Source: an uncultured Clostridia bacterium | Lineage (GTDB): Bacteria; Bacillota; Clostridia; Oscillospirales; Acutalibacteraceae | Length of the DNA: 64,000 bases | Assembly: GCA_947166625.1 (NCBI GenBank) | Contig: CAMVEX010000003.1 | Span: forward strand, 1 to 64,000 | Direction of reading: 5' to 3' | Shown: piece after piece, positions 15,457-33,388 of the stretch | How the letters are laid out: every line of letters begins with the position of its first letter | Position numbering within the stretch: position 1 is the stretch's first letter | Program-made: the position numbers and the translations under genes | Notes under the pieces: model-generated | Told to the model about the DNA's origin: nothing | Seen by the model: only the letters and a program-made list of their open reading frames with translations | Database searches by the model: none

Positions 15457-16914
15457 ATGGAAAGCAAACTAAGAGAATGCTTTGATGAGATGGTTGTATA
15501 TAAAGACTTGAAGAAAAGCAACTTCTTCTCGTCTCTTGGCTTGCCATCCTTCCTCAGGGACTGGGTCTTGAAGAAGTTTGAAGATGATGAAGGAAACTAT
15601 GATATAGAGGAAGTTGCCGAATTCATTCAGACTTATCTTCCCAGAAAGGAAGAATGGATTAGCATCAAGAATCGTATCATCTATGAAAATGAGCGAGTAA
15701 AGATTCTTACAAAGGTTGGTATCGATATCGATATTAAAACAGGTGACATTTCCTTCTCGCTTCCCACCTTTGGTCTCTCCAATAAGGAGACAATCATTGA
15801 GCCTCACGTCTGGGATTCCTATAAGGAGGAACTGACGAATGGGCAGGAAACATGGGGAGTGATAGAGCTCGGGTACCGCATGCCAGACGACACTGCAAAG
15901 CCTAAGATCCCGGGAAAAATAAAAATGACCGGGTTTACCAACTTTTGCCCTTATGTTGCTGATCTTGACTTCTTTAAAGATGCACGTGCGGAGTTCACAG
16001 TTTCGGAATGGATCGATGTTGTGCTTGGAGCGATTGACTACAACGCACAGGGTTACAAGGATGAAGACGAGAAGCTTGCCATGCTTGCCCGTCTGCTTCC
16101 CTTTGTGGAGAAGCGTCTCAATCTTCTGGAACTGGCTCCAAAGGGTACTGGTAAATCCTACGTTTTCGGAAATGTCAGCAAGTATGGCCTTCTCACCGAT
16201 GGCGGCAAAATTACCAGAACAAAGATGTTCTACGATAAGTCTCGCAGGGCACCCGGCTTTATTGTTGGGAATGACTTTGTTGCCATCGATGAGGTAAAGC
16301 TGGTTACTTTTGACAACATCAACGAGATGCGCTCGGTCATGCAGGGTTATATGGAGCGTGGGCGCTTCAACGTTGATGGCTATGATGGTGAGTCTTTCGC
16401 AGGGGTTGTCCTGTTGGGTAACATCTCTATTGAGAACATGGATGAGTATACAAGCATGTTTTCTGAGCTTCCTGTGCTGTTCCAAGAAAGTGCGCTGGTG
16501 GATCGAATCCATGGATTTATCAAAGGTTGGGACATCCCCAAGATGAAGGACAATCTTAAGGTGTCTGGTTGGGCCCTGAATTCTGAGTACTTTTGCACGG
16601 TAATGCATATGCTCAGGGATGATGCCAGCTATCGTGCCATTGTGGATGCACTGGTAGATTTTTCTGACAATGCGTATGTCCGGCATACGGAAGCTGTTAA
16701 GAGAATTGCCACTGCTTATTTAAAGCTGCTGTTTCCCAACGTGCGGACTGTGTCCGATGTCAATCCCAAGGAGTTTATGAAGTACTGCCTGCGTCCTGCC
16801 ATTAAGATGCGCAAAACAATCTGGCGACAGCTCTCCATTCTCGATGCTGAATATAAAAACGAGGATAAGCTTATGCCGGAATTTACATTGAAGGAAATAA
16901 ACGATGAAGAATAA
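15457..16914 (+). CDS. brxL: BrxL-like AAA+ protein of BREX
   Basis: 485 residues. Features: an N-terminal helical domain (KLRECFDEMVVYKDLKKSNFF), AAA+ core with Walker A LAPKGTGKSYVFG (about residue 231) and Walker B FVAIDEVKLV (about 274), then sensor-like LLGNISIEN and a short C-terminal helical region. This matches BrxL. It ends soon after the AAA+ core, so the Lon-protease-like C-terminal domain of the longer type 1 BrxL (about 680 residues) seems absent. The ATG at 15457 has GGGAGG about 6 nt upstream, and the longer in-frame start at 15349 lies inside pglZ and is not credible. It overlaps the next gene by 11 bp. BrxL is thought to act as a DNA-bound ring needed for phage exclusion. Confidence 0.82.
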   Translation: MESKLRECFDEMVVYKDLKKSNFFSSLGLPSFLRDWVLKKFEDDEGNYDIEEVAEFIQTYLPRKEEWISIKNRIIYENERVKILTKVGIDIDIKTGDISFSLPTFGLSNKETIIEPHVWDSYKEELTNGQETWGVIELGYRMPDDTAKPKIPGKIKMTGFTNFCPYVADLDFFKDARAEFTVSEWIDVVLGAIDYNAQGYKDEDEKLAMLARLLPFVEKRLNLLELAPKGTGKSYVFGNVSKYGLLTDGGKITRTKMFYDKSRRAPGFIVGNDFVAIDEVKLVTFDNINEMRSVMQGYMERGRFNVDGYDGESFAGVVLLGNISIENMDEYTSMFSELPVLFQESALVDRIHGFIKGWDIPKMKDNLKVSGWALNSEYFCTVMHMLRDDASYRAIVDALVDFSDNAYVRHTEAVKRIATAYLKLLFPNVRTVSDVNPKEFMKYCLRPAIKMRKTIWRQLSILDAEYKNEDKLMPEFTLKEINDEE

Positions 16915-17110: not shown

Positions 17111-18235
17111 ATGAAGCGTCTGATTTATGCTGATAACGCAGCAACTACGCAATTGGATATAGAGGCTTTTGAAGCGATGAAGCCATACTTGCTTCAGGAG
17201 TACGGCAATGCTTCTCAACCCTATTCATTTGCTCGACAACCCAAAAAGGCGATACAAGAGGCACGGGAAACCATAGCCTCTTGTATTGGTGCGCTGCCGG
17301 AAGAAATCTATTTTACCTCTGGTGGAACCGAAAGTGATAACTGGGCCATTAAAGGTGCGGCATTCTGCAGCCATGATCATAGGGCAACTATAACGACAGC
17401 GTTTGAGCATCATGCAGTTCTTCATGCATGCGAGGCTATTGAACTGCTTGGTTATCCGGTTGCCTATATGTGGCCGGATGGGAACGGGATCGTTTCTCCT
17501 GAAATACTTGAGCATTATATTACAGATAATACATTATTGGTCAGCGTGATGTTTGCAAACAACGAGATAGGCAGTATCCAGCCTATAAAAGAGCTTTGCA
17601 GGCTTGCTCATTCACACGGGGCTTTGTTTCACACGGATGCAGTTCAGGCTATTGGTCATGTCAATATAGATGTTAATGAGCTTGGTGTAGATATGCTTTC
17701 TGCATCTGCCCATAAATTTAATGGGGCAAAAGGCGTCGGGTTTCTGTATATAAGGAAAGGAACTCCAATCACACCTTATGCGGACGGTGGGGCACAGGAG
17801 CATGGTCTTCGTGCAGGAACTGAGAACGTTGCTGGAATTGTTAGCATGGCTACAGCTTTGAGAGTGAATATCGAAAGACTTAACGTAAATCAAGAACATG
17901 TCATCAGCCTTGAGCGAATGCTTCTTAGCAACATAAATAGGAGCGGTATTCATTATATTCGGAACGGCGGTGGTCATACCTTGCCGGGTATTATCAGTCT
18001 TTCCTTTGACGGCAAAGATGGCGAGTCTATCCTTCATAGGATGGATTTGATGGGGATTTGCATCTCAACTGGCTCCGCGTGTGACAGCAGGGACACAGAA
18101 ATCTCTCATGTGTTACGGGCAATCCGAATCCCTGAGAATCTCGCGAAAGGAACCATTCGGATTTCTCTTGGAAAACACAATACTACGGATGATGTTGAAG
18201 CTATTGTTTCAGCTTTAAAAAAAATACTTCTGTAG
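17111..18235 (+). CDS. NifS/IscS/DndA-like cysteine desulfurase
   Basis: 374 residues, typical length. PLP enzyme hallmarks are present: the MKRLIYADNAATTQLD opening, HAVLHACEA (His stacking on PLP), FHTDAVQAIGHV (Asp), SASAHKFNGAKGVGFLYI with the PLP lysine after AHK, and active-site Cys in STGSACDSRD. It would mobilise sulfur from cysteine to an acceptor as a persulfide. Its location directly behind brxL and the Cys-rich protein, and the fact that BREX-4 systems encode a PAPS-reductase-like BrxP related to DndC, suggest it supplies sulfur for a DNA phosphorothioate-type modification, as DndA does. BrxP itself is missing here. Housekeeping Fe-S or tRNA thiolation is the alternative. Confidence 0.88.
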   Translation: MKRLIYADNAATTQLDIEAFEAMKPYLLQEYGNASQPYSFARQPKKAIQEARETIASCIGALPEEIYFTSGGTESDNWAIKGAAFCSHDHRATITTAFEHHAVLHACEAIELLGYPVAYMWPDGNGIVSPEILEHYITDNTLLVSVMFANNEIGSIQPIKELCRLAHSHGALFHTDAVQAIGHVNIDVNELGVDMLSASAHKFNGAKGVGFLYIRKGTPITPYADGGAQEHGLRAGTENVAGIVSMATALRVNIERLNVNQEHVISLERMLLSNINRSGIHYIRNGGGHTLPGIISLSFDGKDGESILHRMDLMGICISTGSACDSRDTEISHVLRAIRIPENLAKGTIRISLGKHNTTDDVEAIVSALKKILL

Positions 18236-19467: not shown

Positions 19468-20082
19468 ATGAGATCGAAAAGCCAAGAAACTCTGGACGCG
19501 ATACTGAAGTTCGTGAACAAGTACTACCAACAGAATCGCAATGCTCCTTCAATCATCGAAGTAGCCGACGGCGTCGGCGTGGGCAAAACAACTGCCTATC
19601 GGTATCTGCAGGAGTTAAGCGAGCGCGGCCTGCTTGAATACAGCAGAGGGATCGCAGCAGCTCCAAAGAGCGCCAAGATGAAGACAGCCTATGTATCCGC
19701 CCCGTTAGTAGGCTCCATTCAGTGCGGCTGCCCCGAGGAGGAACAGGAAATGGTCGAGGAGTATGTCAGCCTGCCTGTTTCCATGTTCGGCAACGGAGAG
19801 TTTTATATTCTTCGTGCCAAGGGAGATTCAATGGTCGACGCCGGAATCGAAGAAGATGATCTGCTTGTTATCGAGCGCAATTGCCCTGCTTCCGAAGGGG
19901 ATATAGTCGTTGCGCTCGATCCCGAAAACCAGAATACTCTGAAACGGTTTGCCGGTTATGACGAGGACTCCGAGAGCTATCTTCTGGCTTATGAGAACGA
20001 GAAGAAGTATCCCGGAAAAGTCATCAGAGTCAAGAGCTTCAAAGTTCAGGGAGTCGCTCGTCATGTGATCAAGTCCCTCTAA
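19468..20082 (+). CDS. lexA: LexA-family SOS repressor (S24 autopeptidase)
   Basis: 204 residues: N-terminal winged helix (APSIIEVADGVGVGKTTAYRYLQ, about residues 20-50), a cleavage region LVGSIQCGCPEEE with a Cys-Gly site as used by many Gram-positive LexA proteins, then a peptidase S24 fold with the nucleophile Ser in AKGDSMVDAGI and the general-base Lys in NTLKRFAGY. The ATG at 19468 follows AGAGGTG; the upstream GTG at 19429 lies in the promoter/operator and is rejected. It heads a run of repair genes (Y-polymerase, YolD-like, SRAP) in one direction, so it probably represses them until DNA damage. Being inside mobile DNA, it is likely a second, element-borne LexA. Confidence 0.88.
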   Translation: MRSKSQETLDAILKFVNKYYQQNRNAPSIIEVADGVGVGKTTAYRYLQELSERGLLEYSRGIAAAPKSAKMKTAYVSAPLVGSIQCGCPEEEQEMVEEYVSLPVSMFGNGEFYILRAKGDSMVDAGIEEDDLLVIERNCPASEGDIVVALDPENQNTLKRFAGYDEDSESYLLAYENEKKYPGKVIRVKSFKVQGVARHVIKSL

Positions 20083-20109
20083 TAATCAAGCGATGGGAGA
20101 TGTTTTTTC

Positions 20110-20304
20110 ATGAGTGCAGTAGATGTAAGGTGCCCTGCCTGCGGCACGGTCAACAAGTCTGTGGACTTAGAAGAGACAGACGGATGGATGGAATGCGAAA
20201 GTTGCGGAGAGGTTACGCAGCAGATGAAGTATGTCACCACAAGGCGTGTGCCCCGCTATGAGCTGAATGAGGTTAAAGTACTTGTTCCGCTTTCGCAGAA
20301 ATAA
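20110..20304 (+). CDS. Small zinc-ribbon protein
   Basis: 64 residues with two CxxC knuckles, CPACGT (residues 8-13) and CESCGE (about 29-34), a classic short zinc ribbon, followed by a basic stretch (KYVTTRRVPRYEL). A GGGAGATG-type ribosome site precedes the ATG. It lies 27 bp after lexA and 18 bp before another Cys4 protein, within the presumed SOS operon. Nucleic-acid or protein binding is likely; no closer function can be given. Confidence 0.7.
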   Translation: MSAVDVRCPACGTVNKSVDLEETDGWMECESCGEVTQQMKYVTTRRVPRYELNEVKVLVPLSQK

Positions 20305-20322
20305 GAGTAAAGGAGTACGGCG

Positions 20323-20532
20323 ATGCTGGATTGGATTATTTACTCCTGGTATTGCCCGAACTGTAAGGAAGAAGTTGCGGGGCTGAAAGACAAGAAAAAC
20401 CAGATAAAAGTAAAATGCAGCCGGTGCGGAGCTGAGATGATCCGCACGATTGTAGGCCGGAGGCACGATGTAATCGACATCTACGCTCCGGCTGGTGAGA
20501 AACACCACGATGCAGAAGTGCAGCTGAGCTAA
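20323..20532 (+). CDS. Second small zinc-ribbon protein
   Basis: 69 residues. CPNCKEE (about residues 11-17) and CSRCGAEM (about 34-41) form a zinc ribbon; the C-terminus is charged (RRHDVIDIYAPAGEKHHD). GGAGTACGGCG precedes the ATG. Together with the preceding gene it forms a pair of tiny Cys4 proteins between lexA and the Y-family polymerase. I do not recognise either as a named family; the shared operon suggests a role tied to repair or regulation of the element. Confidence 0.68.
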   Translation: MLDWIIYSWYCPNCKEEVAGLKDKKNQIKVKCSRCGAEMIRTIVGRRHDVIDIYAPAGEKHHDAEVQLS

Positions 20533-20570
20533 GTACAGCTCGCATTACCTGCAGAAAAGAAGGGCGTGAT

Positions 20571-20606
20571 ATGAGAACCTATGGAACGAACCTACATCTG
20601 CATTGA
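20571..20606 (+). CDS. Possible 11-residue leader peptide overlapping the polymerase start
   Basis: AGAAGGGCG (about 20558-20566) is placed well for an ATG at 20571 that reads 11 codons (MRTYGTNLHLH) to a TGA at 20604. The polymerase ATG at 20581 lies inside it in another frame and has no good site of its own. Translation of the polymerase may therefore depend on this short frame (coupling). It could also be chance. Confidence 0.3.
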   Translation: MRTYGTNLHLH

Positions 20607-21978
20607 TCTCAAGTCATATTACGCATCCGTAGAATGTGTTCATCGGGGACTCGATCCGCTTAAGGCAAACCTGCTGGTAGCGGACGAGTCCCGATCCGAC
20701 CAAACGATCTGTTTGGCGGTCTCCCCCTCTCTGAAGGCAAAGGGCGTCCCAGGACGGCCAAGGCTCTTCGAGGCAAAGCAGAAAATCAGGGAGTACGAGA
20801 TCCGCTGCCATACAAAGGTCGACTACATTATCGCAGTCCCGCGGATGGCAGAATACGAAAGAATCTCCGCTCAGATCTACAGCATCTACCTGCGATACGT
20901 GGCGCCGGAAGATATCCACGTCTATTCCATTGATGAATGCTTTATAGACTGTACCTGCTATCTCCACGCATACCGAAAAGAAGCCGAGAAGCTGAATACC
21001 AATGCGGCTCATATCATGGCAATGACGATGATAAGAGACGTGCTGAAAACGACCGGCATCACAGCTACCGTTGGGATCGGCACAAACCTCTATCTGGCGA
21101 AGGTGGCAATGGACATAGTCGCCAAGAAGCAGCCGGCAGATAAAGACGGCGTCAGGATTGCAGAACTCAATGAAGACTCGTACAAGTTCCTGCTGTGGGA
21201 TCACAAGCCGCTCACCGATTTCTGGCAGATAGGTCACGGAAAGGCCAGGCGGCTTGAAAAAGCATACATGTTTACGATGGGCGATATCGCAGCTCGTACA
21301 CAGTGGGATGAGGAGTTCTTCTACAAGACCTTCGGAATTGACGGCGAGATCTTAGTTGATCACGCCTGGGGTATAGAGCCGGTTACGATGGCAGATATTA
21401 AGTCGTATAAGAGCGATGGACACAGCCTCAGTAACGGCCAAGTGCTTCCGAGGCCATATAAGTATGAGGAGGCGCGGCTCGTTTTTCGTGAGATGATTGA
21501 AGTGCTCTGCACGGATATGTTCTCGAAGAACCTTGTGTCGCCCACATGCTCATGGTGGGTCTCGTATGACTATAAGAGTCTGGAAGCCTGCCCCTTTTAC
21601 GACGGCCCGCTGAGCATCGACTTCTACGGACGCCTCCACCCCAAACACAGTAACGGCACCGTGAAGCTGCCGACCGTCACGAACAACATTCAGATTATCA
21701 CGGCGCCGCTGCTGAAATCCTTTGATGACAAGACGGATCATCGGCTGCTTTATCGAAGGCTGGGAGTCTGCGCAAATGACGTAAAGGAAGACAGCGGAGT
21801 GTTTCAGCTTAACATGTTTATCGACTATGAAGCTCTCGAGAGAGACAGAAAACTCCAGGGAGCCATGCTTGAAGTACGCAGAAAATTCGGATCAAATGCC
21901 TTGTGTAAGGGGATGAACCTTATGGAAGGCGCCACCACATTAGAAAGAAATCAGCAGATAGGCGGTCATAAAGCCTGA
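20581..21978 (+). CDS. Y-family DNA polymerase (UmuC/DinB/UvrX type)
   Basis: 465 residues. The catalytic palm is clear: CIDLKSYYASVECVHRG (first carboxylate, residues about 5-20) and YSIDECFIDCT (SIDE motif, about 115-125). ATVGIGTNLYLAKVAMDI follows as the thumb-side motif, and there is a little-finger domain in the C-terminal third. It performs translesion synthesis past DNA damage. The company of lexA, a YolD-like gene and SRAP matches Gram-positive mobile uvrX-yolD-type cassettes. Start codon choice is uncertain at the ribosome-site level (see the overlapping leader), but the protein begins at the correct place for the family. Confidence 0.93.
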   Translation: MERTYICIDLKSYYASVECVHRGLDPLKANLLVADESRSDQTICLAVSPSLKAKGVPGRPRLFEAKQKIREYEIRCHTKVDYIIAVPRMAEYERISAQIYSIYLRYVAPEDIHVYSIDECFIDCTCYLHAYRKEAEKLNTNAAHIMAMTMIRDVLKTTGITATVGIGTNLYLAKVAMDIVAKKQPADKDGVRIAELNEDSYKFLLWDHKPLTDFWQIGHGKARRLEKAYMFTMGDIAARTQWDEEFFYKTFGIDGEILVDHAWGIEPVTMADIKSYKSDGHSLSNGQVLPRPYKYEEARLVFREMIEVLCTDMFSKNLVSPTCSWWVSYDYKSLEACPFYDGPLSIDFYGRLHPKHSNGTVKLPTVTNNIQIITAPLLKSFDDKTDHRLLYRRLGVCANDVKEDSGVFQLNMFIDYEALERDRKLQGAMLEVRRKFGSNALCKGMNLMEGATTLERNQQIGGHKA

Positions 21979-22011
21979 GTCGCTTCCTGCTGATTCAGGA
22001 GGTAAACTCAA

Positions 22012-22548
22012 GTGAGCAGCATAGGCGTTATGGCGATGCCTGCCGACTTTCGCTACCGGGATGTATTTTTAAAAGGAAAGCCGCAGCATGATCGCTTTGA
22101 CCTGTTTCGCATTCGGCATCCAAGCATGGATGTCGGTCGCAGAGCAAAGATATTCTCCCCCTTCGACGCATTGAAGGGATTCAACGAAGCGATTGCTTCA
22201 AAGGATGTCCTGTACCGTGAACGCGTTGAATTGAGCGATGAAGATCGAACCGAGCTGGACCGCAGACTCCGTATTCTCAAAGGGCTCACATACAACGGGC
22301 ATATGGCTCGAGAAAACCGCGTTAAGATAACGGTGTTATTCTATGTCCCCTGCCTCGATGAGCATAACGAGGCATTCGGAATCCGCGGACGCTATCGGAA
22401 GATAACAGGCACCTGCTGGAATGTCGATGAAATCTACGGAAGCATTTTGGTAGATAAAACACGGATCAGTTTTGATGATATCCTTCGGATCGGGAATGCG
22501 GACGGTGTTTTTCAGAAGGACTGGTCAACCGAATACCCGGTAGACTGA
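22012..22548 (+). CDS. YolD-like protein
   Basis: 178 residues starting with GTG at 22012, chosen because CAGGAGG lies about 9 nt upstream. The centre, GRRAKIFSPFDALKGFNEAI, matches the YolD-like signature (basic residue, F-x-P-F-x-A-L-x-G), and the C-terminal half is a beta-rich region. In Bacillus and many mobile elements yolD precedes or follows a Y-family polymerase (uvrX), and the protein is thought to be an accessory factor of it, possibly UmuD-like. Spacing to the polymerase is 33 bp. Confidence 0.78.
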   Translation: MSSIGVMAMPADFRYRDVFLKGKPQHDRFDLFRIRHPSMDVGRRAKIFSPFDALKGFNEAIASKDVLYRERVELSDEDRTELDRRLRILKGLTYNGHMARENRVKITVLFYVPCLDEHNEAFGIRGRYRKITGTCWNVDEIYGSILVDKTRISFDDILRIGNADGVFQKDWSTEYPVD

Positions 22549-22569
22549 ATCAGTTAGGAGTGATAGCCC

Positions 22570-23187
22570 ATGTGCACAAGATTCTATGTGGAACCCGACA
22601 CGGAAGAAATCCGAGAGATCATCGCCGAAGTACAGCGGTCTCAGTTGTCCGGCAAGTTCATCAAAGCAGGAAATGCAATCCTGACTTCAGGCGAAATCCG
22701 CCCGACAAATGTTGTGCCTGTCATTGCTCCCAGCAGAGCGGGAAGAAGAACTGCTTTCCCAATGAAATGGGGATTTCAGATACCAGGCAGGTCGCTTCTC
22801 GTCAACGCAAGAGTCGAAACGGCAGCTGAGAAGCCAACTTTCAAAGAGGCTTGGGAGAAGCACCGTTGCATCGTTCCGGCTTCCTGGTACTATGAATGGG
22901 AGCATCTGACAGGAAACAGCGGTCAGAAAAAGGTCGGGGACAAATACATGATCCAGCCGAGAGGTTCCTCCATGACATGGCTTGCCGGATTGTACCGTAT
23001 TGAGGACGGGCTCCCCGTTTTCACTGTATTAACCAAGGAGCCTACGGAGGATCTGAGAAGAATCCACGACAGGATGCCGCTGATCCTGCCGGAAGATCGG
23101 ATTGATGAATGGATCAATCCCCTTACAAATCCAAAGGAAATCCTTCGGTACTCCATAACAGACATGGTTATGGAAAAGGCTGTATAA
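22570..23187 (+). CDS. SRAP/HMCES-type abasic-site DNA shielding protein (YedK-like)
   Basis: 205 residues. The initiator Met is followed by the catalytic Cys2 (MCTRFYVE), which cross-links to abasic sites in single-stranded DNA. Other SRAP landmarks are PTNVVPVIAPS, KWGFQIPG, NARVETAAEKPTFKEAW, RCIVPASWYYEWEH and the histidine motif RIHDRMPLIL. It protects abasic DNA during replication and fits the SOS operon; the proximity to the YolD-like gene (21 bp) supports co-expression. Complete and without anomalies. Confidence 0.93.
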   Translation: MCTRFYVEPDTEEIREIIAEVQRSQLSGKFIKAGNAILTSGEIRPTNVVPVIAPSRAGRRTAFPMKWGFQIPGRSLLVNARVETAAEKPTFKEAWEKHRCIVPASWYYEWEHLTGNSGQKKVGDKYMIQPRGSSMTWLAGLYRIEDGLPVFTVLTKEPTEDLRRIHDRMPLILPEDRIDEWINPLTNPKEILRYSITDMVMEKAV

Positions 23188-24308: not shown

Positions 24309-24779
24309 ATGGCAATTAATTTTGGCGCTGAATATAAGCGCTTTGAAAAAGAAATGGCAAAGAAGCATGAGCTATATGCTCAGCTCGGTATGAGTCAGGA
24401 GCAGATTGATGCTCTTGATGAATTCGACAAGGAGGAATTCCTCTCCGACAACACTTACAAGCGGCATGTCCAGTCTTTGAGTATGGATGAAGACTCCGAA
24501 AATCCCGAAGACCTTCATCCGCTGTTCAAGAAGTTCGGAGATGTGCTCTCAGTCGAGCTCAAGGTCACTTTCAGGGATAAATACGCCTGGCTGGACGAAA
24601 TATCCTCTCCCGAACTCACAAAGAAACTGCTTTCTCTGGCACCGGAGGATCTCGAATTGCTGGATGCTTACGTCTTCGGAGAGAAGACCCAGGTTGAACT
24701 TGCGAAGAAAAACGGGATCTCACAGAAGAACATCTCAAAAAAGCTCAATCGCATAAGGCGGTTTTTAGCCGGAGACTGA
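24309..24779 (+). CDS. Sigma-70 region 4-like helix-turn-helix protein
   Basis: 156 residues from the ATG at 24309 with AAGGAG at 24295-24300. The N-terminus is acidic and helical (YAQLGMSQEQIDALDEFDKEEF). The C-terminus, SLAPEDLELLDAYVFGEKTQ followed by a turn and SQKNISKKLNRIRRFLAG, is the helix-turn-helix shape of sigma region 4/phage-type sigma-like regulators (compare ...E..LL...F.G.TQ.E.A...G.SQ..IS). No region 2 is visible, so it is not a full sigma factor. Such proteins are frequent beside Clostridial ICE regulation genes. Flanked on both sides by long structured non-coding DNA. Confidence 0.75.
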   Translation: MAINFGAEYKRFEKEMAKKHELYAQLGMSQEQIDALDEFDKEEFLSDNTYKRHVQSLSMDEDSENPEDLHPLFKKFGDVLSVELKVTFRDKYAWLDEISSPELTKKLLSLAPEDLELLDAYVFGEKTQVELAKKNGISQKNISKKLNRIRRFLAGD

Positions 24780-24834: not shown

Positions 24835-25346
24835 CGTGCTCTACCAAGTGAGAGGATCTTTTTTCTCTCGTTTGGTCTTTGACAACTGAATAGTCTGGAT
24901 GCCGAGGGAACTCCCTCCTCTGTCCGAAAGGACAAGCTGCCGGATGTGAGCGCCAGGACTCCGCAAAACCAGCGGACGAGCGATACATCACACGCCGGGT
25001 CGGCCGGAAAACAGTATCGGCCGATTGGCGATGACAAGAGGTGGGCGAATAATGATACTTCTGCAAGGCAATGCAGCTCGCCGGAAGGCGGGATAAGTAT
25101 GTTACGGGTTGGAATGGATACCCGCTACGGCTTATATGATCCCGGTTGCTGAGAAAAGAGTCTCAGCATGGATACTGTCGGGAACTCCGCATCCACCCTA
25201 TATCAGCAGATTTCTTTTTCTGCTGTGTCCGTCGGGGCCGAGAGAAATAGACGGATCTCAAACTACCACAAAATTACGAAAAGAAATTTGGTGGCAGAAC
25301 TACTGTGCAGGAGCGTTAACGCTCCTGCATACCATTCTGCTACCAA
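24835..25346 (+). ncRNA. Hairpin-rich non-coding region 2; candidate large structured RNA/leader of the helicase gene
   Basis: Nearly 600 bp lie between the sigma-like gene and the helicase ATG with no credible gene. At least eleven stems are readable: 24844-24875 (11 bp), 24904-24917 (6 bp), 24921-24934 (TGTCC-GAAA-GGACA, GNRA loop), 24960-24976, 25000-25024 (7 bp), 25079-25090 (CGCC-GGAA-GGCG), 25105-25124, 25148-25167 (6 bp), 25204-25225, 25228-25255 (6 bp). The last is 25288-25346, a 12-bp stem enclosing a perfect 24-nt palindrome at 25306-25329. The density and the GNRA-type loops indicate a folded RNA. Strand is set by the G-U pairs and loop types. It could be a free ncRNA or a regulatory leader; I could not match it to a named class. 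Confidence 0.6.
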
Positions 25347-25374
25347 GCACCCCGAGAGAAGGAGGATCTTCAAC

Positions 25375-27648
25375 ATGTTTGAAATCACATATAACGACAG
25401 CGATACGCTGCAGAACTTCATAGACGCGGATAAAGCCTACCACGGAGCCGTTTACGACTTCACCTTTGAAGGAAGGTTTATCGTCTATCATTTCTTTGTA
25501 AAAGACACCGCCCGGTATGTCGCCCTGGACAGCATGACGGGATACGGTTCCGAGATTACCCGCAGAAGAAAAGACAATCTCTTCGATTCCCGCAGTTATC
25601 ACAGCATGACGCCGATGGTGCTTGACTCCATCAAATACACCGGCGACAAACGGTATCTGAACGTAATCGTCAACAATCCGCTGGAGGCGATTGAGTCCAT
25701 CTTCCGCACGATCCTTCCTGAGTATGGATTCACCGTTCGAGAGGATCAGATAAAACTCAGCCAGGACATGTACCTTGGGCTCACCGGAAAACAGGTCGCC
25801 ATCTGCGAAGCGGAAGTTGGCACCGGCAAGACGCTTGCTTACCTGATCGCATCTTTCGTTGCAAAGGAGCGTTACGCAGCGGAGTATGGTTTCAATCTCC
25901 CCGTTACGATCAGCACATCCAGTATCGAGCTCCAGAAGATGATCGTTGAAAAGGAAGTGCCGCAGCTCTCCCGCATGCTTCAGGATTACGGTCTGATCAA
26001 GCACCCGCTCTGCGCCGTTGTTCGTAAAGGCAAAGAGCACTACTTCTGCAAAGCCCGCTACTACGATTACCTCAGCAAGATCATGGATCATAAGGAGAAG
26101 TACCGGAACATGATCGACTACTTTACGGCGAACAAAATCGCGGTTCGGGCTTTCGATCTCGACCTCTGGGACATGCCTGCCGCCATCAAAGGCAAGGTTT
26201 GCGTCAAAGGCAGATGCAGTCATTGCGAATACAGAGATGACTGCCGTTACTCCCGCTATGTGAAGGCAGCCAATGATAAAGGCGCTGTTGATTTTCAGGT
26301 AACCAATCATAATATGTTTCTGACCAGCATCAAGGCGTCCGATTGCGAAGCGACTTCCGGAATCATTCAGAGAAGCCCTTACGTGGTGATCGATGAGGCC
26401 CACAAGCTTCTCGAAGCGGCGCAGGCAACCTTCGGCGAACAGTTCTCCGAAGGGATGATCCAGAAGTATATCAACTCCGTCAGATACCTCAAATCCGAAA
26501 GAGTCAAAGAGGATGCGTACAACTACTTCCTGGATAAAGCGAAGAAAACCAACCAGCAGCTCTTCGCCATGCTTCGCAGGATGATCCCTGACGGCGAGTT
26601 CAATGATGAGCGCACCTTTGGTATCACGATTCCCGATGCAGGCGTCTCCCTCATCCTCCGGCTTGCAGAAACGATTGCCATGATCGAGGCCGGCCGGAAA
26701 CCCCATAGAGGAGCATACGAGATGGACGGCAAAAGGATCATCAATGTGCTGGAGCAGTTTGTGCGGCAAAACGACAGCAACATCTGGCTCGAATTGGAAG
26801 ACGGCAACAGCCTTTCTCTGTGCTGCTGCCCGCGGAACATGGCAGATGTGATGGAGAAGAATGTGTGGAACCGATCCGTCAGCTATGTCCTGACCTCCGG
26901 TACCATGAGTGATGGAAGGGACTTTTCGTTCTTCAAGAAGGAAAACGGAATTGCCCGCCTCTCCAAACACCTCGTGAGCGAGTGCTCGACTGCCTCCCCC
27001 TTTGACTATCAGAACCATACCAGGATGTACATCCCCGAAGACATGCCCGCGCCGGATAACAAAAGTGATGACTATATCAATGCCATCACGGAAAGAATCC
27101 TCCGGCTCATCGATGCGACCAACGGTCACACCGCCATTCTGTTCACATCGTATAAAGTCCTGCAGGCCGTGTACGAAAGAGCCATTCATCAGCTCGGCAA
27201 GTACGAAGTGTTCTGCATGACAAGGAACAACAGGAAGGTCATCAGTGATTTCCGCAAGAGCAGGAACGGCGTTCTGTTTGCTTCCGGCTCTATGTGGGAG
27301 GGCGTGGATTGTGTCGGTGACGGGCTCTCCTCCGTGATTATCGTCCGTCTGCCGTTCCCTCTGAGATCGGCAGCAATGGAGCAGAAGAAGGAAGCAGTCG
27401 GAGATGTGGCAAAGTTCGTCCATGAATATGCCGTCCCCGAGATGCTGATCAAGCTCCGCCAGGGCGTCGGAAGACTGATCCGCTGTGAGACAGACACCGG
27501 CGTGATTTCGATCCTGGACTCCCGAGCCGCTACAGGCAGCTATGTTCCGAGAGTGAAAATGGCTCTCCTCAAGTATCCGACCGTGGATTCCGTTGAGGAG
27601 GTTAAATCCTTCATGGAGAGTGTGAAGGGAGAGGATTACTATGCCTGA
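25375..27648 (+). CDS. DinG/XPD-like superfamily 2 DNA helicase
   Basis: 757 residues from the ATG at 25375 (GGAGGATC site at about 25361). Motif I is CEAEVGTGKTLAYLIA, the DEAH box is VVIDEAHKLLEAA, motif V/VI-like elements are FASGSMWEGVDCVGD and LRQGVGRLIR. A cysteine set between motifs I and II (HYFCKARYYD, CVKGRCSHCEYRDDC) is the Fe-S cluster region of XPD/DinG helicases. These unwind DNA 5' to 3' and resolve R-loops or structured DNA; DinG is SOS-linked in many bacteria. The gene stands alone after the 500-nt structured leader, and the stop overlaps the next small gene. Confidence 0.9.
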   Translation: MFEITYNDSDTLQNFIDADKAYHGAVYDFTFEGRFIVYHFFVKDTARYVALDSMTGYGSEITRRRKDNLFDSRSYHSMTPMVLDSIKYTGDKRYLNVIVNNPLEAIESIFRTILPEYGFTVREDQIKLSQDMYLGLTGKQVAICEAEVGTGKTLAYLIASFVAKERYAAEYGFNLPVTISTSSIELQKMIVEKEVPQLSRMLQDYGLIKHPLCAVVRKGKEHYFCKARYYDYLSKIMDHKEKYRNMIDYFTANKIAVRAFDLDLWDMPAAIKGKVCVKGRCSHCEYRDDCRYSRYVKAANDKGAVDFQVTNHNMFLTSIKASDCEATSGIIQRSPYVVIDEAHKLLEAAQATFGEQFSEGMIQKYINSVRYLKSERVKEDAYNYFLDKAKKTNQQLFAMLRRMIPDGEFNDERTFGITIPDAGVSLILRLAETIAMIEAGRKPHRGAYEMDGKRIINVLEQFVRQNDSNIWLELEDGNSLSLCCCPRNMADVMEKNVWNRSVSYVLTSGTMSDGRDFSFFKKENGIARLSKHLVSECSTASPFDYQNHTRMYIPEDMPAPDNKSDDYINAITERILRLIDATNGHTAILFTSYKVLQAVYERAIHQLGKYEVFCMTRNNRKVISDFRKSRNGVLFASGSMWEGVDCVGDGLSSVIIVRLPFPLRSAAMEQKKEAVGDVAKFVHEYAVPEMLIKLRQGVGRLIRCETDTGVISILDSRAATGSYVPRVKMALLKYPTVDSVEEVKSFMESVKGEDYYA

Positions 27649-27826
27649 CGCCTGCAAGCCGGATATGGGAGCGTCCTCGCCGAAAAGCGAGGACGCTCCT
27701 GTAATCACACACATTGAAACAAACATCTTCGACATCGAGGAGATCTATCCGAACTGCACAGTGCAGGTGCTCCGCAACAGCGTCACCGGCGAGGTCAGTG
27801 TCGGATGGTGGAAGAACGGAGAGTAG
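27641..27826 (+). CDS. Hypothetical small protein
   Basis: 61 residues, start overlapping the helicase end by 8 bp. It is acidic, with FDIEEIYPNCTVQVLRNS and a closing VSVGWWKNGE; the pattern suggests a small beta-rich protein. I do not recognise it. Coupling to the helicase and a 3-bp gap to the next small frame support it being real. Function unknown. Confidence 0.55.
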   Translation: MPDACKPDMGASSPKSEDAPVITHIETNIFDIEEIYPNCTVQVLRNSVTGEVSVGWWKNGE

Positions 27827-27829
27827 CCC

Positions 27830-27988
27830 ATGTTATCTGAAGTACAGACGAAAAGCGCCAATTATCTCCGCATCCTCGCCGTCCTTAAAGCTCTGCGAGA
27901 GCGAGGATACATCAATGACAAGGAATATGCCAGGGCGAAGAAATACTATCGCAAGCTCACCGGCGCTGATATTGTGATCGCAGATTAA
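27830..27988 (+). CDS. Small SHOCT-like protein
   Basis: 52 residues, MLSEVQTKSANYLRILAVLK then ERGYINDKEYARAKKYYRKL. The latter resembles the SHOCT motif (L..L...G.I...EY...K..LL), a short helical module seen in many mobile elements. It starts 4 bp after the previous stop. Function unknown; it may be an adaptor or regulator of the recombinase genes downstream. Confidence 0.55.
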   Translation: MLSEVQTKSANYLRILAVLKALRERGYINDKEYARAKKYYRKLTGADIVIAD

Positions 27989-28034
27989 AAAGATATTTCT
28001 TCCGATTTTCGCTGGACTTGTCAAGTTCCGTGGA

Positions 28035-28089
28035 TATAATCTGTGTTGCCGACAAAAAGAGGTTTGCCCTAAAATGTAGGGCAAACCTC
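28035..28089 (+). promoter_or_regulatory. Recombinase-operon promoter element and perfect 13-bp hairpin
   Basis: TATAAT at 28035-28040 (no good -35 hexamer) precedes a perfect inverted repeat: GAGGTTTGCCCTA (28059-28071), 5-nt spacer, TAGGGCAAACCTC (28077-28089). The repeat would form at the very 5' end of the transcript, 23 bp before the first recombinase start and immediately upstream of its AAAGGAGG site. There is no T-tract, so it is not a terminator. It could be an operator, a translation-control hairpin or part of a recombination site. Confidence 0.55.
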
Positions 28090-28112
28090 CCTAAAGGAAA
28101 GGAGGAAGACAC

Positions 28113-29654
28113 ATGGCTCAAGCAAAGCTGATCTCGCCAGTATCCAGGCAAGCATATGAGCGGACGAAGGTCGCAGCCTATTGCCGTGTATCTTCCAATT
28201 CCGCTGATCAGCTCAACTCATATGCCACACAGATCAGGGCGTATACCAAGCTGATAAAGAGCAATGACTCGTGGGAACTCATCGAGATATTTGCCGACGA
28301 AGGACTCAGCGGTATGAAAGCTGAGAACAGAGTCGAGTTCCAGCGTATGATCGAGATGTGTGAGCACAAGCAGATCGATCTGATCATCACCAAATCTGTT
28401 TCCCGATTCGCCCGAAACGTGAAAGAGGCTCTGGAATATGTCCGAAAGCTCAAGCTTCTCGGCATCGGCGTCCAGTTTGAAAAAGAAGGCATCTACACCC
28501 TGGCGCTGGGAGATGAGATGCTGCTCAATACATTTTCCGCCATCGCGCAGGAGGAGTCAAAGGCGATCTCACAGAACCAGCGGCTCTCCATCGTAAAGCG
28601 GATGGAACGAGGCGAATATGTTGACAGCAACGCCCCATATGGCTTCCGGCTGCAGGACAAGAAGCTCGAAGCCTTTGACCGGGAAGCCGATGTAGTGCGC
28701 TACATCTTCCAACAATATCTTAGTGGATGGTCGACCAGTGAAATAGCAAGGGATCTGACCGAAAAAGGCATCCAGACCAAGCTCGGCAAAGAGCAGTGGC
28801 GATCCACAAAGATATCCTATATTCTCTCCAACGAGCGATACGTGGGTGACTGCAGATATCAGAAGACATACCGAGACACCACCGTTCCCTTCAAGCAGTC
28901 GAAGAACCGCGGTCAGGAAGATATGTTCTATGCCAGCGAAACTCATGATCCGATCATAGACAGGGAGTCCTTCGAGAAGGTTCAGGCATTGCTGCAAGAC
29001 CGAAAGGAAAGGTTTTCAAAGTCCGAACAACTGAATATCTATCCTCTAACGAGCCGCATTCGGTGTTCCGAATGCGGCTCGGTCTTTCGCAGGAAGGTTC
29101 GGAACGGAGCAATCAAATGGGTATGTGCCAGACACAGCGCCGACACCCATGCCTGCCCTTCGGGATACTACAGTGAAGAACGGATCTATGACGGATTCAT
29201 CACCATGGTAAACAAGCTCCGATTCGGAGAAGAACGGATTCTCGACCAGGTGATCGCAAAGCTTGAAACGGCTGCAGCCCTGTATAAGCGCAATAATATC
29301 TCTGCCGGAAAGATGAGCCAGAGCATTGCCGAGCTGAACGCAAAGCTTGTCATGCTCGAGCAGCTCCGCTCGAAAGGCTACCTTGCCATAGAGGTATATC
29401 AGTCACAGACCAGGGATATCCAGAAGCAGATCAGCAACCTGAAATCTGAGCGAAGGAGCGCCTTTGAATCCACGATCCAGACTATGCTCGATGATGTCTT
29501 GAAAATGAGATCACTGCTCAATGAAATAGAGGAACCCCTCGAGGAGTTCGATGACAAGCTGTTTCACGAACTCGTCAAGGGTATCAAAATAAATAAGCAG
29601 GACGAAATAACCGTCACTTTCCTTGGCGGCCTGAAATTCACCGAGCTGATATAG
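28113..29654 (+). CDS. Large serine recombinase 1 (catalytic)
   Basis: 513 residues. N-terminal resolvase domain with the nucleophile motif VAAYCRVSS (Ser about residue 29), GLSGMKAENRVEFQRMIE, and TKSVSRFARNVKEAL; then the recombinase domain (EREADVVRYIFQQYLSG-like stretch), a zinc beta-ribbon (RIRCSECGSVFRR ... CARHSADTHACPSG) and a C-terminal coiled coil (about 390-470). It is a site-specific integrase/excisionase of the large serine type. First of three tandem recombinase genes, with AAAGGAGG before the start. Likely moves the element or an inner cassette. Confidence 0.93.
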   Translation: MAQAKLISPVSRQAYERTKVAAYCRVSSNSADQLNSYATQIRAYTKLIKSNDSWELIEIFADEGLSGMKAENRVEFQRMIEMCEHKQIDLIITKSVSRFARNVKEALEYVRKLKLLGIGVQFEKEGIYTLALGDEMLLNTFSAIAQEESKAISQNQRLSIVKRMERGEYVDSNAPYGFRLQDKKLEAFDREADVVRYIFQQYLSGWSTSEIARDLTEKGIQTKLGKEQWRSTKISYILSNERYVGDCRYQKTYRDTTVPFKQSKNRGQEDMFYASETHDPIIDRESFEKVQALLQDRKERFSKSEQLNIYPLTSRIRCSECGSVFRRKVRNGAIKWVCARHSADTHACPSGYYSEERIYDGFITMVNKLRFGEERILDQVIAKLETAAALYKRNNISAGKMSQSIAELNAKLVMLEQLRSKGYLAIEVYQSQTRDIQKQISNLKSERRSAFESTIQTMLDDVLKMRSLLNEIEEPLEEFDDKLFHELVKGIKINKQDEITVTFLGGLKFTELI

Positions 29655-29663
29655 GAGCAAGCC

Positions 29664-30575
29664 ATGAAGAAGACACGCTTTATACCATACGGATACACCA
29701 TGCGAAATGGGCGAACCGTCATTGAGCACGGCGAAGCTGACATTATCCGATATATCTTCAATGAGTATATCAAAGGAGCCTCTCTCAAAGATCTGGCCGA
29801 GGAACTGACAGCTCGCAGAGTGCCTTATACGGAAAAGACGGAAGTATGGGATAAAGCGAGGATTGCGAGGATCATCGATAACGCCAAATACACCGGCTCT
29901 GAAATCTATGACCCCATCATCGATGAGGATACGTTTGAGGAAGCAGCGGCGGCAAAAGCAGCCCGTCAGCGCAATCAGATCGTGAGCGAATGCGAAGGCA
30001 TCGCCCTGATGCGAGATCGAATCCGGTGCGGTCACTGCGGTGCTCCGATGGTACGGCACATCTGCTCCAAACGAAAAGTCAAAGAAAGCTGGACCTGCAC
30101 AAACGATGCCTGCGGATGCCGAGTGAGGATCAGCGATACCGACCTTCTGATGAAGGTCACGCTCCTCATGAATCGAATCATCGAAAACACTGATCTCATG
30201 GTGCCGAAGCCGAGAAAGAGATTGAAAGACTCTCCCGCAATACAACGGCTTCAAAATGAGATCGACAATGAGCTCTCCGTGGAGCAGCCAAGCGAGAAGT
30301 TCATCGCCTCCCGTATCTGCGAGATAGCAAGTCAGCTTTACAGAGAGACAAACGCAAAGGAGCAAATCGCCGCTCGCATCGCTCAAAAGCGGGTCATTCT
30401 CATGAACCCTCAAACAGAGTTCAACTCAGTCTACTTCACCGATCTTGTTGAGAATGTGATCCTCGAGGCTCCCGCCAGAGTGTCCCTTCTCACAAAGACC
30501 GATGTTCAAATAAGCGAAGGAGAACCCGAATATGGATGTCAAGAAAATACCGAAGAAGACGGTGACGCTGATTGA
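29664..30575 (+). CDS. Recombinase 2: DNA-binding half only, no catalytic domain
   Basis: 303 residues. It begins directly in the recombinase domain (KTRFIPYGYTMRNGRTVIEHGEADIIRYIFNEY) and has the zinc ribbon (RIRCGHCGAPM ... WTCTNDACGCRVRI) and a C-terminal helical region. The whole N-terminal resolvase domain with its serine is absent. It is 9 bp after recombinase 1 and overlaps recombinase 3 by 44 bp, with its own start after GGAGCAAGCC. The clean start and intact frame argue that it is a genuine subunit rather than debris. It may direct the catalytic partners to particular sites (inference). Confidence 0.85.
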   Translation: MKKTRFIPYGYTMRNGRTVIEHGEADIIRYIFNEYIKGASLKDLAEELTARRVPYTEKTEVWDKARIARIIDNAKYTGSEIYDPIIDEDTFEEAAAAKAARQRNQIVSECEGIALMRDRIRCGHCGAPMVRHICSKRKVKESWTCTNDACGCRVRISDTDLLMKVTLLMNRIIENTDLMVPKPRKRLKDSPAIQRLQNEIDNELSVEQPSEKFIASRICEIASQLYRETNAKEQIAARIAQKRVILMNPQTEFNSVYFTDLVENVILEAPARVSLLTKTDVQISEGEPEYGCQENTEEDGDAD

Positions 30576-32163
30576 GCCGAAACGATCAATCCTCGTCGAT
30601 AAAGAGAAATACCATCAGAAGCGCGTCGCCGCATATTGCCGTGTCTCAACGGACAGCGAGGAGCAGCTCACGTCCTATGTGAATCAGAAGAAGTTCTACA
30701 CGGACATGATCGCCAGGAACACCGAGTGGCAATTCGCCGGTCTGTATGCCGATGAAGGAATCTCGGGAACCCGTGCAGACAAGCGTCCAGAGTTCAATAA
30801 CATGATCAAGGCCTGCCTTGCGGGAAAGATCGACTATGTCATTACAAAATCCGTCTCCCGCTTCGCCCGAAACACGGTGGACTGCCTGGACTATGTCCGC
30901 ATGCTGAGAGCAAGAGGAATCGGAATCTTCTTCGAGGAGCAGAACATCGATACGCTGAAAAGCGACAGCGAACTGTACCTCGTCATCTACGCAGGCTTCG
31001 CCCAATCCGAATCCGAAAGCATCAGCAAGAACATCACATGGAGTTACCGAAAGAACTTCGAGGACGGCAAACCCATCTTCATGTTTAAGAAGCTGCTCGG
31101 CTACAGAAAAGGAGAAGACGGAGAACCCGAGATCGTCCCCAAGGAAGCCGAAATAGTGGAACGCATCTACACCATGTACCTGTCGGGCATGACGGTAGAC
31201 GTCATTTCAAGTCAGCTCCAGTCAGAGCATATCGTGATCCCCGGCAAGAAGTTCAGCTTCGGGAAGAACATGGTCATGAATATACTGAAGAATGAAAAGT
31301 ACTGCGGAGACTGCATCCTTCAGAAAACCGTAACCGTTGACTGCATCTCAAAGACAAGGAAGAAAAACGAAGGCGAAGCTCCCATGTATATCGTGGAGAA
31401 CAGCCATCCTGCAATCATCAGCAGAGAGATGTTCAATCGGGCTCAGGAGGAACTGAGCAAACGGAAAGCCCGATCCCCGCAATCACAGAAAACGGCGATT
31501 ACCGCCTCTGGCAAGTATTCCAAGTACGCGCTGACAGACGTTCTGATCTGCGCAGAATGCGGAAGCAGATATAAGCGCGTGACCTGGACGAGTCTCGGTC
31601 AGAAACGGATCGTGTGGCGCTGTGTCAACCGCTTGGACAACGGAAAGAAGTACTGCCAGCACTCTCCGACACTGAGCGAACCTGCCCTGCAGGAAGCGAT
31701 TGTGAGAGCCTTAAACAAGTTCAATGACGAGGACACCTCAACATACCTCACTCTGATGAAAGCCACAATCGGCGAAGCTATCGGCGCCAACGGCGGCTCT
31801 GATGAGATTGATCTGCTGGAGCGGCGAATCGATGCCCTGAACAGCCGTATGCTGAAAATGGTCAGTGACAGCGTTGAGAGAGGCGCCGATATGGAGGAGA
31901 ACGAAGATGAGTTCAAAACCATCTCCGAACAGATCGAGCAGCTCAACCGCAGAATAGAAGCCATCCGAAAGAGCGAGGGCAGCGATGAGGATCAGCAAGA
32001 ACGCCTGAACCTGATCCAAGCCACCATCGATCAGAGAGAAGCCCATCGTGACACATACGATGACGCCATCGTCCGTCAGATGATCGAGTGCGTCAAAGTC
32101 CACGAAGGAGGAAAGCTCACCATCATCTTTGGAGGCGGCTATGAGATAGAGGAACAGATCTGA
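30532..32163 (+). CDS. Large serine recombinase 3 (catalytic)
   Basis: 543 residues. Catalytic domain with VAAYCRVSTDSEEQLTSY, GISGTRADKRPEFNNMI and TKSVSRFARNTVDCLDY; recombinase domain around KEAEIVERIYTMYLSGMT; zinc ribbon CAECGSRYKR ... CVNRLDNGKKYCQH; then a long coiled coil (about 410-500). The frame starts inside the end of recombinase 2 with AAGGAGAACCCG upstream. It ends with TGA directly against the stop of the opposite-strand DUF6551 remnant (no spacer and no terminator), which is unusual and suggests a nearby recombination boundary. Confidence 0.93.
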   Translation: MDVKKIPKKTVTLIEPKRSILVDKEKYHQKRVAAYCRVSTDSEEQLTSYVNQKKFYTDMIARNTEWQFAGLYADEGISGTRADKRPEFNNMIKACLAGKIDYVITKSVSRFARNTVDCLDYVRMLRARGIGIFFEEQNIDTLKSDSELYLVIYAGFAQSESESISKNITWSYRKNFEDGKPIFMFKKLLGYRKGEDGEPEIVPKEAEIVERIYTMYLSGMTVDVISSQLQSEHIVIPGKKFSFGKNMVMNILKNEKYCGDCILQKTVTVDCISKTRKKNEGEAPMYIVENSHPAIISREMFNRAQEELSKRKARSPQSQKTAITASGKYSKYALTDVLICAECGSRYKRVTWTSLGQKRIVWRCVNRLDNGKKYCQHSPTLSEPALQEAIVRALNKFNDEDTSTYLTLMKATIGEAIGANGGSDEIDLLERRIDALNSRMLKMVSDSVERGADMEENEDEFKTISEQIEQLNRRIEAIRKSEGSDEDQQERLNLIQATIDQREAHRDTYDDAIVRQMIECVKVHEGGKLTIIFGGGYEIEEQI

Positions 32164-32868
32164 TCAGAGAGCGCCCTCCTCGACTTCGGATTCGTCATTC
32201 CAGTCCTCATCCGATACGGACGAATCCTCCAAGCCGGAGAAGATAGAAGACTCCCGTGCATGCAGCTTATTGATCGAAAGCCGCTGTGCGGGGTTTTTCT
32301 TTTTGCCGTTATACTCAATCAGCATCGCCTCTGCGTAGCCCATCGAACCGGCATGCCGCTCCTTTGCTATACGGACGAGCTGCTTGACGGAAATGGCGCC
32401 AACCTTCTCCTTGAAAATCTCGTCATTAAGCTGTTCACCGAAGACAGAGATCAGCTTGGTTATGCCGTTCAGTATGTTTGCCGAGAACGAGTTCATATCT
32501 CCTTCCCAGGTGCCGATACAGAGCCTGAGTACCCGGCTGAGCATGTGATAACCATACTTCCGGTAAATCTGCTCCAGCGTTGAAACGGCACAGATCACAC
32601 AAGGTGCTTTCTTTGTGCCTATTTCAAGGCCATATGACTCCACAAGATCTCTGATGATGAGTTGATCATCATTCCCGGCTTCCAGATTTGCCAGGTACAC
32701 TTCATACGGGCTTAGAGGTTTGACGAATTTCTGCTGATTGGCAAAGATGTCAGCCTCATGCTCATAGACAAGCTCCTCGTATATCATACACCACACAGGA
32801 GTATCGCGTGAGCCTGAAACCAAAGCAACGATCTCGATTGTGTGCTGACCGTTGAATACATAGTTTAG
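32164..32868 (-). pseudogene. DUF6551/ParB-like protein, 5' part lost
   Basis: Reading the minus strand from about 32,868, one frame runs LNYVFNGQHTIEIVALVSGS, WCMIYEELVYEHEADIFANQ and on to an acidic tail (EDWNDESEVEEGAL). The FNGQHT motif and EADIFANQQK follow the pattern of DUF6551 ParB-like proteins of Clostridial mobile elements. The N-terminal part, including the family's usual start, is missing, and the frame is entered out of phase from a truncated serine recombinase. About 234 codons remain. No start codon with a ribosome site lies at the break, so it is probably not expressed as a functional protein. Confidence 0.75.
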
Positions 32869-33388
32869 CCTGGAAGGTCAGTGCCATTTGTGAGTCATCG
32901 TTCAGCGAGAAGATCGCCTCGGACTCAAAGAAGACTCCGACCCGAGGTTTGAGCTCTGCGAGACTGCGAACCGTACCGATGAAATCCTCCACGTTTCTTG
33001 CAAATCGGGAAACTGACTTGGTGATAATCATGTCGATCTTCCCGGCGCGACAGTCGGCAATCATTTTATTGAATTCATCACGCTTTTTAAGAGAAGTTCC
33101 GCTGATGCCTTCATCGGCGTAGATCTTGACCAGCGTCCAGTTCGGATGCCGTGTAACAAACTCCTCATAATACTTCTTCTGCAGTTCATACGAAGTGGTC
33201 TGACGGACGTCATCAGTCGAGACGCGGACGTAAATCGCAACCCGCTGGTTGACGTCATTGTCGTAGTAGTCCGTCTGCTTCTTGGCGGGAATGAATAAGT
33301 AGTTCTCAGGGTCAATGGTTACGTTATACCGCTTCTTGACCTTCTGCTTCTGCTGTTCCTTCCGGCGCTTGGTCTCAGTATCACGCAT
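32869..33388 (-). pseudogene. Serine recombinase, catalytic N-terminus only, truncated at a junction
   Basis: The start at 33388 (second ATG after GGAGGTG, 8 nt spacing) leads to a basic N-terminus, then a resolvase domain with VAIYVRVSTDD, GISGTSLKKRDEFNKMIADC, TKSVSRFARNVEDFIG and NDDSQMALTFQA. At that last motif, where family members continue into the recombinase domain, the sequence switches to DUF6551 coding sequence in another frame; about 35 foreign residues follow to a stop at 32762. The DNA-binding half is therefore missing. The upstream gene overlaps it by 8 bp on the same strand. Confidence 0.8.

Follow-up and report, generated by a model that had tools for sequence, protein, structure and literature searches.

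A dinG-type structured RNA ahead of integration genes in an uncultured Clostridia bacterium and its homology to the canT region of Tn916

The locus and its mobile-element setting

The window, meaning the whole 64-kb stretch of DNA that was analysed, contains a densely folded region at 24,835-25,346, between two genes on the + strand. The upstream gene (24,309-24,779) encodes a sigma-70-like small protein that matches TIGR02937 at 33.8 bits, below the cut-off of 42.9. The downstream gene (25,375-27,648) had been called a DinG-like helicase from the sequence alone, and its product is indeed a relative of DinG/YoaA-type helicases: it matches PF13307 above the cut-off and the NCBIfam DinG/YoaA models with scores that all fall below theirs. 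Three genes with profile matches to serine recombinases follow on the + strand (28,113-29,654, 29,664-30,575 and 30,532-32,163); in the middle one, the N-terminal resolvase domain gave no match. The order is sigma-like gene (a weak match), RNA, dinG and three serine recombinases, with the RNA reading toward the integration genes and the element end on that side. The opposite end of the element is cut off by the contig ends.

Several other features adjoin this module. Two strong inverted repeats without a clear T run lie between dinG and the first recombinase gene (27,666-27,701 and about 28,055-28,095); a terminator search called neither of them. Directly beyond the three recombinase genes, more recombinase-like ORFs in the opposite orientation (32,164-34,136, - strand) possibly represent a second element or remnants. 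Upstream of the RNA are an SOS-type gene cluster at 19,468-23,187 (a LexA-like S24 peptidase, a Y-family polymerase and an SRAP protein) and, at 12,112-16,914, part of a BREX-type defence locus, identified with PADLOC models (the C-terminal part of BrxC, 161 bits; PglZ, 298.5; BrxL, 674). A cysteine desulfurase gene adjoins the BREX genes at 17,111-18,235 (DndA/SspA models, 425 and 423 bits).

On the + strand, the predicted folding energy of the region is -201.9 kcal/mol, whereas its shuffles average -158.8 (sd 6.7; z -6.47), and none of 100 shuffles folds as well. The - strand also folds well (z -5.56), so stability alone does not settle the choice of strand. The open frame that runs into dinG from upstream ranges from 2 to 182 codons in 16 loci; because it is short in several of them (L014, L032, L060 and L062), the region before dinG is read as non-coding. 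These results uphold the sequence-only reading, which had described about 500 nt of densely folded non-coding DNA with GNRA-type loops; the latter are found as GAAA within 24,922-24,933 and GGAA within 25,077-25,092. The possibility that DinG extends N-terminally across the 3′ hairpin (see below) was rejected, as the in-frame open stretch is not conserved across the 16 loci. The mean open stretch before dinG is about 53 codons in the dinG frame versus about 26 in the other two frames, and its last part may be translated in some loci.

Rfam matches and relatives

The middle of the region, 25,051-25,135 (+), is a dinG RNA (RF03082; 80.8 bits against a gathering threshold of 46.9), the sole Rfam family to reach its gathering threshold in the window. 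The earlier impression that the region matches no known class is thereby corrected. The pemK RNA model (RF02913) matches 25,049-25,102 at 28.8 bits, below its threshold of 34.8, so that the window copy is a relative of pemK RNAs rather than a member. At E values up to 5, Rfam matches around the region comprise dinG, pemK, two eukaryotic families and nothing else. The ATAATGATACTTCYG start of the pemK family and its whole upstream domain are common with the window RNA, whereas the second half of pemK is unlike it. Rfam labels pemK as cis-regulatory and dinG as an sRNA; both motifs are said to originate from Weinberg 2017. The Rfam dinG model is 87 nt long, whereas the conserved element exceeds 300 nt, from a BoxA-like site to beyond the closing helix P1.

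Searches with RF03082 gave matches in 5 of 398 genomes of the family, 4 of 391 of the class and 5 of 398 of the phylum, with the window's own genome counted in each sample. Seven genome contigs and three viral contigs came in through DinG searches, which further pointed to three contigs of a phage collection with DinG identities of 31-33%. In all, 23 loci show the RNA core. Of the seven loci with upstream DNA among those genome and viral contigs, six have it and L010 does not. In that locus, the DNA ahead of the DinG relative (L010:3001) looks like an unrelated gene, possibly as a result of misassembly.

Matches to pemK occur in 54 of 196 sampled class genomes, with up to six per genome; 15 such loci were taken and 12 analysed, with L067, L074 and L075 set aside as near-duplicates. 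A blastn search of the region against plasmids and phages gave no match, and a DinG protein search against plasmids gave 281 records, all below 60% identity. Looser core patterns returned four and four viral contigs, among which Rfam and reading recognised only the known L017 as a relative.

The core structure

Helices were assessed with an alignment-free swap test, in which the pairing of a strand with its own partner is compared with its pairing to partners swapped among loci. The test omits the truncated L006 and the near-duplicates L008, L009 and L033. For helices with hand-set strands (P1, P2, P11 and the 3′ hairpin), swapped pairing amounts to 45-62%.

A core of about 300 nt is closed by P1, formed by GGATGCCGAG at 24,897-24,906 and CTCCGCATCC at 25,185-25,194. 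Hand-set P1 strands are 93% paired with their own partners versus 56% when swapped in 19 loci, and in the loose alignment-free test 14 of 20,000 shuffles reach the own mean. The long-range helix P2 joins CCCTCCTCT at 24,913-24,921, in the segment after P1, to AGAGGTGGG at 25,037-25,045, the bases directly ahead of the conserved AATGATAC, and encloses P3, a kink-turn-like arm and P5. Evidence for P2 includes covariation, 89% own-locus pairing of the hand-set strands (19 loci) and a swap test in which 0 of 20,000 shuffles reach the observed value in the 19 dinG-type loci, the 12 pemK-type loci and all 31 together. With looser windows, the alignment-free counts are 0 for P2 and 8 for P4, again out of 20,000.

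Within P2, the P3 hairpin (24,922-24,933, GAAA loop) is a feature of part of the family, with 73% of alignment cells paired and many gaps. The P4 arm (24,940-24,998) contains the internal loop CGC-CAG-GA ... C-GA-GCG. Kink-turns of the Kt-7 type consist of a C stem, a 3-nt bulge, tandem GA pairs and an NC stem, and the window has this pattern. Both strands are likewise recognised in 17 of 19 dinG-type loci (L014 and L028 are the exceptions). The first strand is recognised in 10 of 12 pemK-type loci. Helix pairs flanking the kink-turn covary, while the C stem is invariant. The P5 hairpin (25,000-25,025), with AACAGTAT in its loop, has 94% of cells paired and changes on both sides at all six pairs. 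Pairing of this loop with ATACTGT ahead of the P1 3′ strand is weak, with 2,712 of 20,000 shuffles reaching its score; the partners change in a compensating manner in L001 (ACAGTATC/GATACTGT) and L004 (CAACAT/ATGTTG). The most conserved motif, ATAATGATAC, follows P2 at 25,049-25,058. Further downstream, a CCCG...CGGG helix with an inner hairpin (25,141-25,182) is predicted by single-sequence folding and looks alike in close relatives.

A 27-row alignment, made of loci that reach E < 0.01 with the covariance model R1 (see below) or were used to train it, gives a similar picture, although its statistics lean toward the model because the alignment was fitted to it; the swap tests are independent of the alignment. 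In it, 87.0% of cells are paired versus 53.4% after shuffling and 29-42% in slid versions; changes on both sides occur in 280 cells versus 87, and the covariation score is 0.633 versus 0.148. The number of pairs changed on both sides (31 of 34, shuffle mean 27.6) carries little weight alone. RNAalifold on the same rows predicts 29 pairs, 26 of them with double changes. An initial MAFFT/RNAalifold alignment was set aside, as P1 and P2 were misplaced in some rows. The covariation-backed fold spans about 320 nt and appears to be new.

The large structured RNA with compensatory changes that had been proposed for this mobile DNA is thus supported, as P1, P2 and the P2-enclosed domain covary; homologues free of compensatory changes, which would have spoken against the proposal, were looked for with swap tests and covariation, and compensation was found instead. 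The counts of G-U against A-C pairs differ with the method: hand-set helices favour the + strand (28 G-U versus 3 A-C), whereas loose unbiased counts do not (P2, 10/20; P1, 44/35; P4, 10/14).

The BoxA-like site

A BoxA-like element, CTTTGACAACTGAATA, lies at 24,877-24,892, ahead of P1, and has the same placement in all 20 full-length dinG-type loci. Directly ahead of it, in a BoxB-like position, is a hairpin at 24,844-24,875 that folds alone; by eye, hairpins occupy the same place in several relatives. Across the 20 loci, 10-16 of the 16 bases match the yardstick. The score of 10 in L027, L030 and L032 is weak by itself, with the position unchanged and TTGACAA kept; in L068, the script probably mis-assigned the element.

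Resemblance to the BoxA of rRNA leaders is moderate. The 23S leader of a genome of the same family matches at 14 of 16 bases, 94 bases ahead of the gene, and other leaders match at 12, but unrelated places in the same rRNA loci reach 12-13, which counts against the antitermination-leader reading developed below. The comparison rests on leaders of relatives, as a search of the window's own genome did not find its 23S gene. From the likeness to rRNA leaders, NusB/S10 may have a role at the BoxA-like site.

The 3′ part and the linkage to dinG

The core is followed by a probable H-type pseudoknot (25,196-25,255), in which CCC at 25,196-25,198 would pair with GGGG at 25,234-25,237. The latter lies in the loop of the P11 stem (25,228-25,233/25,250-25,255), and this loop ends in AAATA. 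In nine loci, P11 strands are 94% paired with their own partners versus 52% when swapped. An extra hairpin at 25,204-25,225 is inserted within the proposed pseudoknot. By eye, many loci have CCC after P1, then a hairpin whose loop starts with GGG and ends with AAATA; the C/G pairing is not proven by this, because its pairs do not vary.

A hairpin of about -40 kcal/mol (25,287-25,346) stands directly ahead of the dinG ribosome-binding site. It is built around a perfect 24-nt palindrome at 25,306-25,329, as the sequence-only reading had noted for the final stem. In 13 dinG-linked loci, its hand-set outer and inner stems are 100% and 99% paired with their own partners versus 62% and 49% when swapped. 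The hairpin was not found ahead of dinG in L028 and L061, and none was seen in the five loci without DinG. Its exact pattern was found in 1 of 394 genomes of the order (the window's own) and in one viral contig already in the set. The hairpin may act as a site of its own for control or processing.

A covarying hairpin so near the dinG start could indicate that the RNA is a 5′ leader regulating dinG itself, for example at the level of translation through the hairpin at the ribosome-binding site. A DinG relative does come after the RNA in 18 of the 23 loci; this count is biased because nine loci were found through DinG, and among those found with RF03082 it is 9 of 14. In G253, G314, G240 (78% complete) and G853, however, the core is present without a DinG relative at E <= 1e-10, and the pemK-type and Tn916-type relatives precede other genes. 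By our own reading of the sequences, the genes downstream of relatives encode MazF/PemK, ParA, Xis, RepA-type or mobilisation proteins; the xis genes and one pemK/mazF also carry those annotations. The RNA is therefore not tied to DinG, and its occurrence ahead of varied mobile-element genes suits a leader that serves whichever operon follows. A leader dedicated to dinG is thus quite unlikely, although regulation of dinG by the 3′ hairpin alone may still hold. The same four genomes weaken the idea of a dedicated partner RNA of DinG, which was also considered.

Homology to the canT region of Tn916

The canT region of Tn916, described by Wirachman & Grossman 2024 (PMC11658703), is the 452-nt stretch between orf8 and xis. 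It is an orientation-specific processive antiterminator, most likely an RNA, that acts in cis and not in trans, and transcription past terminator T1 in circular Tn916 needs it (PMC11658703). Its predicted secondary structures were complicated to relate to activity, and tertiary structure was suspected (PMC11658703). In our single-sequence folds, the Tn916-type region is mildly better than shuffles (z -2.63).

A covariance model, R1, was built from 11 dinG-type upstream domains ending just ahead of the Rfam segment (24,877-25,050 in the window), and the domain is supported by covariation as well. Among 28 unseen loci, 19 are matched by R1 at E < 0.01 (L067, L074 and L075, near-duplicates, among the 19), with matches ending at or beside the conserved motif. 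It recovers L060-L062, where Rfam gives nothing up to E 1. In L081, the tet(M) element of pCF10 (Tn916 type), R1 scores 52.9 bits (E 1.7e-10). Matches are weak in L079, L077, L069 and L082 (E 0.066, 0.13, 0.35 and 0.74), and L027, L030, L068, L080 and L084 gave no match, L084 not being known to carry the RNA; the weak score of the vanB-type L082 and these absent matches count against the antitermination-leader reading. In a control with 194 kb from 17 other sources, the window among them, the highest-scoring match apart from the window RNA has 22.6 bits (E 0.0024), barely below the L060 score of 23.1. In the window's own genome, R1 finds the window copy only.

In both L081 and L082, a vanB element which we take to be of Tn1549 type, the RNA fills the stretch between an HTH gene and xis, and pemK scores 55.0 and 57.8 bits. 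Tn916- and vanB-type elements have the RNA between sigma-like/HTH genes and xis-int; L081 and L082 carry an annotated sigma-70 family gene two genes ahead of xis, and several relatives likewise have small sigma-like ORFs ahead of the RNA. A blastn search with one pemK-type locus gave 44 plasmid records, 37 of them from Enterococcus, mostly through xis and the RNA end. Tn916 canT and the window RNA have in common their place between sigma-like/HTH genes and integration genes, the upstream domain, the BoxA-like site, P1, P2, the kink-turn-like loop and the ATAATGATAC motif. Taken together, the sequence comparisons establish that the window RNA is homologous to the Tn916 canT region and to pemK RNAs. 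The differences are that canT precedes xis-int with a tyrosine recombinase, whereas the window copy stands ahead of dinG and the serine recombinase genes, carries the extra 3′ hairpin and belongs to Rfam dinG rather than pemK.

Mutational data provide a further point of contact. The inactivating S3 change, from ATA to TGC, alters a tyrosine codon of orf5, an antisense frame (PMC11658703). The orf5 of L081, with 83 codons as in that paper, has two tyrosines only, and both correspond to sense ATA inside GATAATGATAC. The S3 change thus appears to fall in the most conserved motif of the family, a position deduced from the orf5 tyrosines rather than from the published figure; both candidate positions lie in the motif that the window has at 25,049-25,058.

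ROOL, GOLLD and HEARO are large structured RNAs of mobile DNA, to which the region had been likened from its sequence. That kinship is not supported: none of them has an Rfam match in the window, and the homology leads to canT instead. The size, the compact multi-helix core, the mobile-element setting and the varied downstream genes would suit a trans-acting large ornate RNA (ROOL/GOLLD/OLE-like) that is released from the transcript and works as RNA or RNP, with BoxA merely protecting a long untranslated RNA from termination. Given the Rfam result and the Tn916 homologue, which works in cis rather than in trans (PMC11658703), such an RNA is unlikely here.

A probable antitermination leader

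The homology to a region mapped as canT points to a cis-acting antitermination leader, and we consider it likely that the window region is a canT-like leader heading an integrative element's integration-module operon. The nascent leader would carry a BoxA-like site of the rRNA-leader kind and would then fold into the P1-closed core of about 300 nt, with its kink-turn-like arm and a probable H-type pseudoknot after it. By homology to canT, the folded RNA would act in cis on its own RNA polymerase, converting it to a termination-resistant form that could read through the module and, in the circular element, into genes at the other end. Activity has been demonstrated for canT; that the window copy acts like canT is suggested by homology and position, and read-through beyond the recombinases would follow by extension. 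The put RNA of HK022, the EAR RNA of the Bacillus eps operon and conAn2 of pLS20 are other cases of RNA-based processive antitermination (PMC11658703), likened to the window RNA by description and without an Rfam match in the window.

Several observations count against this reading. No terminator-like site that an antiterminator would have to overcome was found on the + strand at 25,350-32,400. No clear promoter was found directly upstream of the RNA in the window; inside the RNA, two promoter-like sites were found on the + strand versus 0.6 expected. Some canT fragments show behaviour that no fold explains (PMC11658703). By eye, TTGACA-17-TATAAT precedes the BoxA-like site in L004 only. L026 has two tandem copies of a stretch that resembles TTGGTTGTGAAAATC...ACAAATAAGGAATGAGAAG ahead of the BoxA-like site, perhaps a duplicated promoter region.

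The folding of both strands, the relaxase, replication or recombinase genes near several copies and the loose G-U versus A-C counts, which show no RNA-strand preference, could instead reflect a single-stranded DNA element, such as an origin of transfer or of second-strand synthesis. This is very unlikely in light of the BoxA-like site, the kink-turn-like motif, the single orientation toward the following genes and the hand-set helices with their excess of G-U over A-C. Moreover, the homologous region of Tn916 works in one orientation and most likely as RNA, and the oriT and sso of that element map to sites separate from canT (PMC11658703).

Beyond the proposed antitermination leader in the window, dinG RNA, pemK RNA and canT probably form one superfamily of BoxA-led cis antitermination RNAs with a kink-turn, many with a pseudoknot, that head mobile-element operons in Bacillota. 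A shared tertiary fold would explain why minimum-energy folds do not reveal canT activity. The copy in the window would be a dinG-type member, whose extra hairpin may tune DinG separately. The joining of dinG, pemK and canT, together with the BoxA-like site and the kink-turn, seems to be new: no paper linking the three was found in the open-access literature, and PMC11658703 contains none of the words boxA, pemK, Nus, NusB and Rfam. The dinG and pemK motifs, for which no established role was found, gain a candidate function through canT. In turn, the named parts (BoxA-like site, P1, P2, kink-turn and conserved motif) provide canT with a structure backed by covariation, one that its discoverers were unable to obtain by folding single sequences (PMC11658703). 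An antitermination mechanism in a common group of integrative elements, including use of the rRNA-type NusB/S10 pathway, becomes directly testable.

Other RNA elements lie near some copies. L081 has a match to Rfam SQ2397, a cis-regulator of an HTH gene, at 989-1218 (229.8 bits), with a weak match in L082. Two unrelated loci carry c-di-GMP-I riboswitches about 1.1-1.3 kb upstream of the RNA and on its strand: L030 (2884-2973; 81.6 bits) and L031 (2720-2808; 74.3 bits), both on the - strand.
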